From: Microcaldota archaeon
GTDB taxonomy: Archaea > Micrarchaeota > Micrarchaeia > Micrarchaeales > Micrarchaeaceae
Length of the DNA stretch: 64,000 nt
NCBI GenBank assembly: GCA_028866905.1
Contig: JAGWHI010000003.1
Span: 1 to 64,000 of the forward strand
Direction of reading: 5' to 3'
Shown here piece by piece: positions 58,053-63,679 of the stretch; the stretch's first letter is position 1; each line of letters starts with the position of its first letter. The notes beneath the pieces were generated by a model. The model was given only the letters and a program-made list of their open reading frames with translations. It was not told where the DNA came from and did not search any database. Both the position numbers and the translations under genes were made by a program.

Positions 58053-58856
58053 CTATTTCCTCTCTGCGTACACCATGCCGAGAAGCATGTCCCTCTTGTC
58101 GTAGCCCAGCATGTAGTTTAGAGGGGTCAAACGGACGCTGAACCCGCACGAGCGCAGCTTGCGGCCCATCTCCTTGTAGCCGTAGTGCGCCTCTATCATT
58201 ATGCGCGAAAACCTGCGCAGCGTCTGCCTGTCGCTCGACATTATTATCCCGTACTCGCAGCCCTCGCAGTCGATCTTCAGGACCGCGTTCCCGAGGTTGT
58301 ACCTGTCGGACAGCTGCTTGAGGGTTACTATAGGTACGCCGACGCCCTTCCCAGAGTGCGATGCCACGCTGGCGGCGTTGCTCTCTATTTTCGGGTCTAT
58401 CCTTATGCTGCCGGGCCTGCCGCCGCACGCGACCCTCAGCAGGGTTATGCGCTTGCCATATTTGTTGAGGGATATGTTCCTGCTCGCAATCCTGTGCGAG
58501 TGGGGGAACGGCTCTATAGCGTATACGTGCATTGCCCCATTCGCCGCGAAATAAATCGCGCTATCGGCTATGTTTGCGCCTATGTCGACGACATTACTGC
58601 CTTTTGGGGAAAGCCAGGCGTATTGCTCGTCGACAAACTGGTCTGCGAGGAGTCCGGCCATGTCTAGAAGGCTGTCAGGCCCGCTGCAGGCGAAGGAGAT
58701 ATTTTGTTTCTTGTAATCGAGAATCGCGGTTTTCGTCTTTGGGTCGTAGCGTATGCCGAGCTTGGACAGGCGCGCCAGGTTCCTTGACTTGAAGTACCTG
58801 AGATAGGCTCCGTGGAGGTGCTCGTTTGACTTCACGAACAGAGCTACTGGCTTCAT
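58053..58856 (-). CDS. FkbM-family SAM-dependent methyltransferase
   Basis: 267 aa. SAM motif VVDIGANIADSAIYFA at about residue 88, VYAIEPFPHSHRIASRNI (motif II with Glu), and KIDCEGCEYGII, the characteristic FkbM motif. It methylates a hydroxyl, commonly on a sugar or polyketide; here a sugar of the surface glycan is likely from context. It runs opposite to the glycan genes around it. Confidence 0.88.
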   Translation of the reverse strand: MKPVALFVKSNEHLHGAYLRYFKSRNLARLSKLGIRYDPKTKTAILDYKKQNISFACSGPDSLLDMAGLLADQFVDEQYAWLSPKGSNVVDIGANIADSAIYFAANGAMHVYAIEPFPHSHRIASRNISLNKYGKRITLLRVACGGRPGSIRIDPKIESNAASVASHSGKGVGVPIVTLKQLSDRYNLGNAVLKIDCEGCEYGIIMSSDRQTLRRFSRIMIEAHYGYKEMGRKLRSCGFSVRLTPLNYMLGYDKRDMLLGMVYAERK

Positions 58857-58979
58857 CAGCCTGTTCCTTATACCTATTCTTTCCGCCGTTGAGACACCTT
58901 AGTAGATATTTATAGAGTTTGTGATAGAAGTCTATATATTATGTTTCGAATCGACGTCTGGCTGCCGACAGGCGGCTAG

Positions 58980-60335
58980 ATGTCCGCTTTTATCATCCGC
59001 GTGCTTTTGATGGAACCAAACATACTGCTGATAGTGTGCGACACACTCCGAAAGGACATAATCGACCTTTACGGCGGAGAGGCGAAGATGCCGAACCTCA
59101 GGAAGCTCGCGAAGGACTCCATGGTGTACGATAACTGCATAGCACCGTCGCCATGGACATTCCCGTCGCACGTGTCGCTGTTCACGGGCCTGTACCCCAG
59201 CGAGCACGGGATACACGAGACGAAGGACGTCAAGGTGGAGCAGCTGCGCGAAAGGCACATGCGCCTGGGAGCGGAGAGGCTGGCCGAGTTCCTGTCGGCG
59301 CGCGGTTACAACACGCTTGGCGTATCCAACAACCTGATGGTATCGAGGTTCACAGGCTTCGACAGGGGCTTCAGGAACTTCTTCAACATAGAGCCGTCGC
59401 CGTGGTCGAGGAGCAAGATCGCCACAGAGGCGAGGAACATTGGCGCAGGCATGTTCCAGATATCCAAGGAGCTCATAGCTGCGAGGAGGATCAACGACAT
59501 GCTGAAGTACGCCAAGGAGTTCATGAGGATCAAGTCGCTCGCCAAGGCGGTCAATTACCCGATGGACAAGGGGGCGGAACTCACAAACAGCCTGATAACG
59601 TACACTCCGCTCTACGGCAAGTTCTTCCTGTTCGTCAACTACTACGAGATGCACGAGCCGTACAAGGGCTTCGACGAGAAGGAGATGCTGGACAACCTGC
59701 TCGGGATAAGGAAGACATCCGCGGCGAAAGTGGAGCGCCTGAAGGGGTAGTACGTTTCCGAGGCCGAGTACCTCGACTCGCGCCTGGGCGAGCTGATCGG
59801 GACGCTCAGGTCAAGGGGCGTCTACGACGACACAATGGTAATAATAACATCGGACCACGGCCAGGCGTTCAACGAGCACGGGTTCATGTACCACGGAACC
59901 TACCTGTACGACGAGATAGTGCGCATACCCCTGATAATAAAGTATCCGCACGGCAGGAGGTTCAGGAAGAGGCCCGGCTGCCAGAGCCTGTGCAACATAT
60001 TCCCGCTCATACGCGACATACTCGACGGAAAGGACGACAGGAGGGTGACTACCGGGTCGGCTTTCGCGGAGGCGTACGGCAACACCGAGCACATCCCCAA
60101 GGCGTACAGCCACATGATGCCGTACATCGAGAAGACGTACGAGAAAGTGAGGAAGGCTGTTTATACCGACAGCGGCAAGATGACGTTCAACGATACCGAT
60201 GGCACAATTGAGGAGCTTTACGACGGCAAGAGGGAGATCGATCCGAACGGCAGCAAGGCAAAGGGATTGGCTAAAACGCTGTCGACCGAACTGAACAGGT
60301 TCGGAAAACGCGACGGGTTCAGGGTGAGCGCCTGA
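58980..60335 (+). pseudogene. Sulfatase/alkaline-phosphatase-fold enzyme, copy 1, interrupted by one in-frame TAG
   Basis: The reading frame is open from 58980 (or the more family-like ATG 59010) to 60335 except for TAG at 59748-59750. In the intact copy downstream this position is CAG (Gln in KHQYV), so a single C-to-T change explains it. Metal and nucleophile regions are otherwise normal: NILLIVCDTLRKD, SPWTFPSHVSLFTG (Thr in the place of the sulfatase Cys/Ser) and ITSDHGQAFNEHG, which lies after the stop. Without readthrough the protein ends at about 246-256 aa and lacks the second metal site. Sequencing error, polymorphism, decay or amber readthrough are all possible. Confidence 0.75.
59010..59240 (+). 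repeat. 231-bp direct repeat, copy 1 (5' end of sulfatase-fold gene 1)
   Basis: Identical to 60335-60565 except for five single-base differences (about 98% identity), at an offset of 1325 bp. Identity stops abruptly after GTGGAG. The encoded proteins are far less similar beyond this point. Confidence 0.9.
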
Positions 60336-61690
60336 CGGAACCGAACATACTGCTGATAGTGTGCGACACACTCCGAAAGGACATAATCGACCTTTACGGC
60401 GGAGAGGCGAGGATGCCGAACCTCAGGAAGCTCGCTAAGGACTCCATGGTGTACGATAACTGCATAGCACCGTCGCCATGGACATTCCCGTCGCACGTGT
60501 CGCTGTTCACAGGCCTGTACCCCAGCGAGCACGGGATACACGAGACGAAGGACGTCAAGGTGGAGGGCCTTACCGACTGGCACATGAAGCTGGACGTAGA
60601 GCGCCTTCCGGAGCAGCTGCGCGCACTGGGCTACAACACCCTTGCGCTGTCGAACAACCTTATGATATCCAGGTTCACGGGCTTCGACAGGGGCTTCAAC
60701 CTCTTCCTGAACCTCGAGCCCTCGCCATGGTCCAGGAACAGGGTAGTTCGCGAGGCGAAGATGCTGGGCTCGGACATAGTGCAGGTCGCGAAGGAGCTGA
60801 TAAGGCAGAGGCGCCACGGCGAGATAATAAAGTTCGGCAGCGAGTACATAAGGGCGCGCGCCCTAGCGAAGGCGATAAGGTATCCGGTCGACAAGGGGGC
60901 GGAGCTCACCAACAGCATAATAATGGACATGAAGCTGTCCGACAAGTTCTTCCTGTTCGTCAACTACTACGAGGCGCACGACCCTTACGTCGGGTTCAGC
61001 GACAAGGAGAACCAGGACAACTTCACAGGCGTGAGGCCGTACCGCGAGCGCAGGATAGCGGCGCTCAAGCACCAGTACGTGCTCGAGGCCGAATACCTGG
61101 ACAGGCACATCGGGGACCTGATCGAGATGCTCAAGAACCGCGGCCTCTACGATGACACAATGATAATAATAACATCGGACCACGGGCAGGCGTTCAACGA
61201 GCACGGGTTCATGTACCACGGCATATACCTCTACGACGAGCTCTCGCGGATACCGCTGATAGTGAAGTACCCGGGCTCCAGGAAGTTCAAGAGGCGCGAA
61301 GGCTACCAGAGCCTGGTGAACATACCGGACCTCATACACGACGTGATTGGGAGCGGGGACGACTCCAGGCTCACCACGAGGACGGCGTTCTCGGAGGCGT
61401 ACGGCAACACCGACAGGCCGCCGGCCAGCTACAAGCACCGCATGGGGTACGTCAACGGCAAGTACGAGAAGTCAAGGAAGGCGCTCTACCGCGACGGGTA
61501 CAAGCTGACTGTCAACGGCACCGACGGCAGCATCGAGGAGTTCATGCACGGTAACAAGGACATCCTCGAGCAGGGCCGCAATGACAAATACGTTCTTAAA
61601 GAGATGCTGGGAATAATAGATGGGTTCAAGGGCGGAGAGAGCTTCAGGATGCCGCGCACCCGGAAGAGTGTCAGCGATGAAAAGAGATGA
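60332..61690 (+). CDS. Sulfatase/alkaline-phosphatase-fold enzyme, copy 2
   Basis: 452 aa if started at CTG 60332, which overlaps the upstream TGA as CTGA. The codon aligned with copy 1's ATG is ACG (60335). The first standard start is GTG 60359, which would remove the first beta-strand (NILLIV) before the metal Asp in CDTLRKD. Motifs: SPWTFPSHVSLFTG with Thr where formylglycine sulfatases have Cys/Ser, and ITSDHGQAFNEHG for the second metal site. A Thr nucleophile is typical of phosphoethanolamine/phosphoglycerol transferases and phosphodiesterases of this superfamily. No membrane helices. It precedes the PIG-L gene with a 14-nt overlap. Confidence 0.8.
   Translation: MTEPNILLIVCDTLRKDIIDLYGGEARMPNLRKLAKDSMVYDNCIAPSPWTFPSHVSLFTGLYPSEHGIHETKDVKVEGLTDWHMKLDVERLPEQLRALGYNTLALSNNLMISRFTGFDRGFNLFLNLEPSPWSRNRVVREAKMLGSDIVQVAKELIRQRRHGEIIKFGSEYIRARALAKAIRYPVDKGAELTNSIIMDMKLSDKFFLFVNYYEAHDPYVGFSDKENQDNFTGVRPYRERRIAALKHQYVLEAEYLDRHIGDLIEMLKNRGLYDDTMIIITSDHGQAFNEHGFMYHGIYLYDELSRIPLIVKYPGSRKFKRREGYQSLVNIPDLIHDVIGSGDDSRLTTRTAFSEAYGNTDRPPASYKHRMGYVNGKYEKSRKALYRDGYKLTVNGTDGSIEEFMHGNKDILEQGRNDKYVLKEMLGIIDGFKGGESFRMPRTRKSVSDEKR
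60335..60565 (+). repeat. 231-bp direct repeat, copy 2 (5' end of sulfatase-fold gene 2)
   Basis: Partner of 59010-59240. The five differences are ATG/ACG at the start codon, CCA/CCG, AAG/AGG, GCG/GCT and ACG/ACA. Confidence 0.9.
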
Positions 61691-62504
61691 GCCTGCGAGG
61701 CACTACCGCAGGTTCCTTACGAAATGGAGCCAGATGGCGAGCTTCGCCAAGGAGAGCGTGAACGTAGTCATAAGCCCGCACATGGACGACGTCTTCCTGT
61801 CGCTGTACAGGCACATAGTCTCCGGGTCGCTCGGCAGCAACATAGTCGGCATAAACATATTCAGCCTGACCGACAGCAGGGTGGACACCAACACCGGAAC
61901 CTCTTTCAGGAGCGTACGCGCCACAAGCCTGGAGCGCATGAAGGAGGAGATCGCTTTCTCCGACCACCTGGCCGATAAGGGCATAGACTACATACCCGCA
62001 TTCGTCGGGGTAAAGGACGCTGCGCTGTACAGCTACTACCAGTTCATAGCATCGAGGCACATAGGGAAGCTGGGGGCCGTGGCGAGGAAGCCATACGACA
62101 GGTACATCGCCGCCAGGTACGCAAAGATCGGGATAGACTCGATAATACAGCCGATACTCAAGCAGTATGGCAGGAGCGTGGCCAACATAGTTGTGCCCCT
62201 GGGCATAGGCGACCACATTGACCACATGATGCTAAGGAGGTCGACGATCAAGGCAGAGGCGCCCAGGCTCGGGATGTTCTGCGACATGCCGTACACTTAC
62301 CAGTACGGTTTCGACACTGTCGAGAAGCTGCGCGCAGCCGCGCCCACGGGCTACAACGAGTACACGGTAAGGAAGGGCGACGCCGCGCAGAAGGCGAGGG
62401 CTTTCGCGAGGCTGTTCCCAAGCCAGAGCGACAGGAAGACCGAGCGGCTCATACTCGGCGCGGAGCGCGCGACAGGCGAGGTCGTGTTCTGGTACAATCT
62501 CTGA
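61677..62504 (+). CDS. PIG-L-type deacetylase (LmbE family)
   Basis: 275 aa from ATG 61677, which overlaps the sulfatase-fold gene by 14 nt; a longer reading from 61620 lies in that gene. The zinc motif VVISPHMDDVFLSL (PHxDD) and a later His pair GDHIDHMML fit the family that removes acetyl groups from GlcNAc-containing lipids or small thiols. It probably acts on a glycan precursor in this cluster. It is soluble, like bacterial members. Confidence 0.85.
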   Translation: MKRDEPARHYRRFLTKWSQMASFAKESVNVVISPHMDDVFLSLYRHIVSGSLGSNIVGINIFSLTDSRVDTNTGTSFRSVRATSLERMKEEIAFSDHLADKGIDYIPAFVGVKDAALYSYYQFIASRHIGKLGAVARKPYDRYIAARYAKIGIDSIIQPILKQYGRSVANIVVPLGIGDHIDHMMLRRSTIKAEAPRLGMFCDMPYTYQYGFDTVEKLRAAAPTGYNEYTVRKGDAAQKARAFARLFPSQSDRKTERLILGAERATGEVVFWYNL

Positions 62505-62512
62505 GGTATTTG

Positions 62513-63679
62513 ATGCCTGGGAAGCCGAAGCTTGCGATAATAACCAACAACCTGAACGCACTGGGCGGAGGCGAAAGGCTGTCGCTAGAGATCGCTTCGA
62601 GGGTGAGGGACAGCTTCGACGTCTCGGTGCTCAACCCTGTCTCAAGGCTCGACAGGGCCACCATATCGACCGAGGAGCTGAAGGGGAGGTTCAACCTGAA
62701 GGGCGTGGAGCTAGTCGACGTGAACGCATGGAGCTTCATGGCGAGGTCCTTCGGTTCCGACAGGTACGTGTTCAGGATACCCACGCCGAAGGGAATGGCG
62801 ACGATGATGGACGCCATGCGCAGGTGCGACGTGGTATACCAGACCAGCCTGAACCCGCTGACGCTGTTCATAGCCGCGACCGCGGCGCGGAGCTACGGCA
62901 AGAAGTTCGTGCTGGGGGTCCACAACTTCTCTGTATCCAAGGCGATAAAGGGGGAGGGCGGGGCTAAGCAGCGCGCCCTGAGCGCGATGTTCCTCAAGGC
63001 GTTGGGCATGGTGGGCTACTTCCACGTGACCAACACCAGGGACCAGGGGCTCCTCAGGCAGCGCTTCCCAAAGGCGCACGTCGAGCTCATATACAACTTC
63101 ATAACGAGAAGGGCGAGGGCGCAGAGGACCAACCGCAGGGATTTCATAGTGTTCTACGCCGGCAGGCTCGAGAGCCAGAAGGGCGTCGACCTCCTCTGCG
63201 AGGCGATCGCGAAGACGGTCGAGAGGAACGACAGGATAAAATTCCACATAGCCGGATCAGGAGGCGACTGCGAGCAGCTGGTGCGGGGAACGGCGCACAG
63301 GTATCCGCGCAACGTGAAATGGTTCGGCTTCGTGTTCGGGAAGAGGCTGGAGGCGCTCTACAAGGGGGCTAGCCTGTTCGTCCTGCCATCGAGGTCTGAG
63401 ACCTTCTCCATATCGCTTCTCGAGGCGCAGAGCTACGGAATGCCGGCGCTCGCGTTCGACGTCGACGGGCCGAAGGACATGATCAGGAACGGCTTCCAGG
63501 GCGAGCTTATTCCGCAGTTCGATGTGGACGGGCTGGTCGACGGCATAGTGGCGCAGTACAACCTGTGGAGCGCAGGCAGGCCTTTCGACGCGAACAGGAG
63601 GAGGATAGCCGCGTTCGTTAACAGGAACTACAGCCCGTCAGTCATTATCCCAAAGATAAAAAGGCTTCTGATGCCATAG
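62513..63679 (+). CDS. Family 4 glycosyltransferase
   Basis: 388 aa from ATG 62513. GT-B fold: LAIITNNLNALGGGERLSLE at the N-terminus, then IVFYAGRLESQKGVDLLCEA, HIAGSGGDCEQL, and LPSRSETFSISLLEAQSYGMPAL with the EX7E motif. It is a retaining sugar transferase. It lies 8 nt after one PIG-L-type gene and 8 nt before another, so the three are surely one transcript. Confidence 0.9.
   Translation: MPGKPKLAIITNNLNALGGGERLSLEIASRVRDSFDVSVLNPVSRLDRATISTEELKGRFNLKGVELVDVNAWSFMARSFGSDRYVFRIPTPKGMATMMDAMRRCDVVYQTSLNPLTLFIAATAARSYGKKFVLGVHNFSVSKAIKGEGGAKQRALSAMFLKALGMVGYFHVTNTRDQGLLRQRFPKAHVELIYNFITRRARAQRTNRRDFIVFYAGRLESQKGVDLLCEAIAKTVERNDRIKFHIAGSGGDCEQLVRGTAHRYPRNVKWFGFVFGKRLEALYKGASLFVLPSRSETFSISLLEAQSYGMPALAFDVDGPKDMIRNGFQGELIPQFDVDGLVDGIVAQYNLWSAGRPFDANRRRIAAFVNRNYSPSVIIPKIKRLLMP

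Follow-up and report, generated by a model that had tools for sequence, protein, structure and literature searches.

Two tandem paralogues of the sulfatase/alkaline phosphatase superfamily in the window (the whole stretch of 64,000 nucleotides that was analysed) appear to be old copies that have recently exchanged sequence by recombination over their first ~77 codons, a reading to which we assign a probability of roughly 0.8. The features on which this reading is based are listed in Table 1.

Table 1. Positions of the tandem pair, its parts and its neighbours within the window.
Feature	Position	Strand	Remarks
FkbM-type methyltransferase (PF05050)	58053-58856	-	divergent neighbour; relative in L033, 43% identity
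Copy 1	59010-60335	+	sulfatase/alkaline-phosphatase-superfamily gene (PF00884); in-frame TAG inside; ends with TGA 60333-60335
Near-identical block, copy 1	59010-59240	+	putative conversion tract; 5/231 differences to copy 2
In-frame TAG, copy 1	59748-59750	+	codon 247; a sense codon in the seven other genes of the alignment
Second short similar block (TSDHG motif), copy 1	59829-59897	+	silent identity not significant
Copy 2	60335-61690	+	paralogue of copy 1; 451 open codons counted from ACG 60335
ACG at start of copy 2	60335-60337	+	ATG in copy 1 and in related copy 2; overlaps TGA of copy 1
Near-identical block, copy 2	60335-60565	+	counterpart of 59010-59240
TSDHG counterpart, copy 2	61154-61222	+	offset 1325
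Downstream neighbour of copy 2	61677-62504	+	relative follows the pair in L033, 41% identity
Glycosyltransferase (PF00534)	62510-63679	+	relative in L033, 38% identity

A sharp-edged block of silent-site identity

The first-pass annotation had described a 231-base block shared by the two genes with only five differences, silent sites included, with sharp edges and strong divergence beyond them, and both the coordinates and the count are borne out. The copies align without gaps for 441 codons, always 1325 bases apart, and while the block holds five base differences the next stretch differs at 366 of 1092 positions. The five differences comprise one in the start codon (59011, ATG/ACG), three silent changes (59018, 59111 and 59186) and one Lys/Arg replacement (59086); the longest exact runs common to both blocks measure 74, 67 and 54 bases, and both copies read the block in the same frame. 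On the left side the block begins at the start codon of copy 1, and the 60 bases upstream agree at 20/60 positions in an ungapped comparison, which is roughly chance. On the right side differences start at 59241. Direct repeats in the whole 64-kb window were found only between copies 1 and 2 and inverted repeats were not found, using an ungapped search (at least 60 bases, seed 14) that gapped repeats or repeats less than ~65% alike can escape. A 40-base probe from the block, allowing up to 3 mismatches, matches only these two sites in the 885,590-base assembly.

Such a block could be an artefact of assembly or binning, one copy having been filled with the sequence of the other or strain variants having been mixed. 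The assembly is fragmented (31 contigs), a related contig stops within its copy 1 (see below), and the TAG and ACG codons listed in Table 1 could be consensus errors. However, the blocks do differ at five positions and share no exact run above 74 bases, a length within common k-mer lengths, and a tandem pair is also present in an independent assembly. We therefore regard an artefact as quite improbable.

We then compared silent differences along the genes, counting only codons for which the two copies have the same residue, Met and Trp excluded. Copies 1 and 2 differ silently at 3/72 such codons in the block versus 50/192 outside (Fisher p = 2.3e-5). As the edges of the block had been chosen by eye, we applied a likelihood scan to every segment of at least 8 same-residue codons, with rates estimated and codons treated as exchangeable. 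Without given edges the scan chose codons 4-77, and 0/400 shuffles reached its score. A run-length test on polymorphic silent codons gave a weak result (985/20000 shuffles as long), and a weighted segment test with an arbitrary penalty of 3 was not significant (3325/20000 shuffles). Synonymous divergence plotted along the genes, a check proposed in the first-pass annotation, is uneven: Nei-Gojobori dS between the copies is about 0.07 for codons 2-78, 0.75 for codons 79-231, 1.32 for the 15 codons 232-246 and 0.61 for codons 248-441. The Fisher test and the scan support the original proposal of gene conversion or recent recombination between the copies.

In the gene bodies (59241-60332 and 60566-61657) dS between the copies, with values of 0.75 and 0.61, is lower than that of either copy against the related genes (1.00-1.45), codons 232-246 excepted. 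The protein divergence between the copies in the same stretches is as high as or higher than that against the related genes. Older exchanges or a shared codon preference could account for the lower silent divergence of the bodies.

A second block of near-identity had been noted near 59830 and 61155, around the TSDHG motif. The similar stretch exists, with exact runs at 59839-59860 and 59862-59896, but an excess of silent identity does not hold up: silent differences amount to 2/20 versus 48/172 in the rest outside both blocks (p = 0.11), and a scan outside the first block found no segment beyond the shuffles, 317 out of 400 being as good. A further conversion tract at this position is thus not supported. 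In comparisons with the related genome the silent differences at the motif range from 3/19 to 7/18, and the conserved motif alone suffices to explain the second block.

The tandem pair in related genomes

Some match at E <= 1e-10 is seen in 48 of the 60 relatives searched; the four named relatives are three Candidatus Micrarchaeota MAGs and one genome labelled Parvarchaeota. Among the 164 genomes of the order, six (this one included) match at E <= 1e-60, the best match outside this genome reaches 67% identity, and two adjacent copies at E <= 1e-60 occur only here and in one other genome (G006), which belongs to the same family but another genus. The locus of that genome (L004) is identical over 3474 bases to a locus of isolate REEA81 (L033), where the same tandem arrangement is followed by relatives of both downstream genes. 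The L033 contig also carries relatives of the FkbM methyltransferase and of the epimerases (39% and 34% identity). The contig breaks off at about codon 232 of its copy 1 (L033 1-647), which leaves that gene without its N-terminal half. A repeat could be the reason why the contig ends there; the first bases of the contig and its copy 2 are not identical. In viral contigs no relative was found.

The related copy 2, which is full-length, allows the constraint on the block to be assessed. At conserved degenerate codons it differs silently from copy 1 at 23/59 positions in the block and 70/194 outside, and from copy 2 at 24/58 in the block and 78/222 outside. The block DNA is therefore under no special constraint, as the related gene differs silently by about 40% within it. 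This comparison with a related genome, likewise proposed in the first-pass annotation, argues against a general nucleotide constraint and leaves homogenisation in the lineage of the window as the simplest cause. Selection on the nucleotide sequence itself, through an overlapping gene, an RNA element or codon bias, could in principle keep the block identical without any exchange, and mechanical open reading frames do overlap the block on both strands. Yet the divergence of the related copy is no lower in the block than elsewhere, and no Rfam family is matched in the block at gathering score, which makes this explanation extremely unlikely.

In the protein trees of the middle part and of the tail, copy 2 groups with its related counterpart (support 71 and 76). 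The tail tree also contains a split uniting copy 1 with the related copy 1 (support 44), and in the protein tree of the block copy 2 is nearer to the related copy 2 (support 38). At the nucleotide level the block tree sets copies 1 and 2 apart from the rest (support 70), the middle tree puts copy 2 with the related copy 2 (support 60) and the tail tree does not recover the pairs. In this comparison of block and rest the supports are low, and the related copy 1 enters without its first half. The outgroup rows (L005, L034, L035 and L036) included sequence ahead of the real start; the analysis was limited to columns in which neither window copy has a gap. Over codons 232-441, 26 nucleotide quartet site patterns group the two window copies against the two related copies, 25 pair each window copy with its related counterpart and 22 follow the remaining arrangement; the amino acid patterns, in the same order, number 4, 9 and 3. 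Orthology of the gene bodies to the related pair is weakly resolved.

A recent tandem duplication followed by replacement of the body of one copy, from codon 78 onward, by the gene of a diverged relative would likewise predict near-identity up to a sharp edge at 59241, the block being the unreplaced remainder, and the weak resolution of body orthology is compatible with this scenario. However, a diverged tandem pair, in identical order and followed by relatives of the same downstream genes, is already present in the related genome, and so one old duplication followed by conversion is the simpler explanation. In addition, no closer donor was found among the 164 genomes of the order. Body replacement thus appears unlikely.

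According to the preferred reading, exchange between old paralogues, the gene was probably duplicated before this lineage split from the related genus; the argument for this relative age comes mainly from the arrangement common to both genomes. One copy would then have served as template and overwritten the other by homologous recombination, either by non-reciprocal conversion, which we favour, or by an equivalent unequal exchange. The tract would start at about the start codon, where the upstream homology stops, and end at codon 77/78. When the five block differences are polarised with the related copy 2, copy 2 of the window appears to carry the derived state at four of them (the start codon among these) and copy 1 at one, a distribution that does not resolve the direction of conversion.

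State of the two reading frames

The TAG in copy 1 cuts the gene after 246 codons from ATG 59010, the frame being otherwise open to its TGA; a longer in-frame ATG at 58980 is likewise open. Copy 2, the two related copies and the four outgroup rows all have a sense codon at this position. A general reassignment of TAG as a sense codon was considered and rejected: 15 of 49 long open reading frames in the window (non-overlapping mechanical frames of at least 150 codons, which are not verified genes) end in TAG, so that TAG acts as a regular stop codon here. A hairpin of 14 pairs with a 4-base loop (58953-58984) lies shortly before copy 1 and overlaps the alternative ATG; it comes from a terminator-like scan that performed at chance level (2 found versus 2.1 expected).

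In the frame of copy 2 the first ATG, GTG or TTG after the upstream stop at 60272 is GTG 60359, and a CTG at 60332 directly precedes the ACG. A GGTGA at 60323-60327, upstream of copy 2, resembles a Shine-Dalgarno core. Translation of copy 2 might start at ACG, CTG or GTG. Neither gene has the appearance of a normal, intact one in the assembled sequence. Given the TAG at codon 247 of copy 1 and the lack of an ordinary start in copy 2, one gene or both are probably in decay, unless translation of copy 2 begins at a non-standard codon.

Enzyme family and gene neighbourhood

Both copies span the length of the PF00884 profile, carry the DHG motif and score far above the cut-off of 25 bits, with 122 bits for copy 2 and 115.6 bits for copy 1 when its one TAG is read through. 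They are thus like other hydrolases of the sulfatase/alkaline phosphatase superfamily, and they are the only PF00884 matches in the assembly, which is rated 90% complete. Formylglycine sulfatases have Cys/Ser-x-Pro-x-Arg at the active site, with Cys or Ser as the first residue, while the alignment places Thr-Phe-Pro-Ser-His at this site in copy 1, copy 2 and the related copy 2. Thr at the position of the nucleophile makes a formylglycine sulfatase unlikely; more probably the enzymes are superfamily hydrolases or transferases that act on phospho- or other esters. The 231-base block covers what we take to be the N-terminal strand, a region with a putative metal-binding Asp and the Thr of the nucleophile site.

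The pair lies between the FkbM-type methyltransferase and, one gene further, the glycosyltransferase, which suggests a glycan or surface-polymer cluster. The gene directly downstream of copy 2 resembles PIG-L deacetylases, as judged by eye; no Pfam or NCBIfam model matched it at E <= 0.001.

Discussion

Our analysis indicates that two tandem paralogues have recombined recently in a Micrarchaeota-like archaeon whose genome is small. Recent recombination between the copies would imply that homologous recombination works in this organism over short homology of about 230 bases. The pair also calls for caution in annotation: copy 1 holds an in-frame stop and copy 2 is without an ordinary start.

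As copy 1 provides the start and copy 2 an uninterrupted body, with the blocks in the same frame, recombination between the blocks would join the start to the open body. The pair might then be a switchable arrangement, with off and on forms of a surface-glycan-modifying enzyme alternating in the population, which we consider very unlikely. If both arrangements were to coexist in one population, this would point to a DPANN archaeon that switches a surface-modification enzyme by recombination.

Gene conversion between paralogues is a well-known process, and what is unusual here is mainly that each copy looks damaged at a different place. In the part of the literature that was searched on Micrarchaeota with gene conversion or sulfatase, no title concerns such a pair. 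Partial gene conversion has been described for the bacterial release-factor genes RF1 and RF2, which are described as indispensable, in two independent cases (PMC4530459). There, as here, conversion is limited to a domain-sized part with the same function in both paralogues and the rest has diverged; the present case differs in that it concerns a single tandem pair of a single genome, in which one gene has a premature stop and the other a changed start codon. Among prokaryotic paralogues, concerted evolution is known from tuf and from archaeal mtrA, whose copies are tandem (PMC6053082). These systems resemble ours in that paralogues within a genome are closer to each other than to their orthologues, at synonymous sites too, but in tuf and mtrA the process is recurrent over long times and in several species, whereas here it is seen as one tract in one genome.
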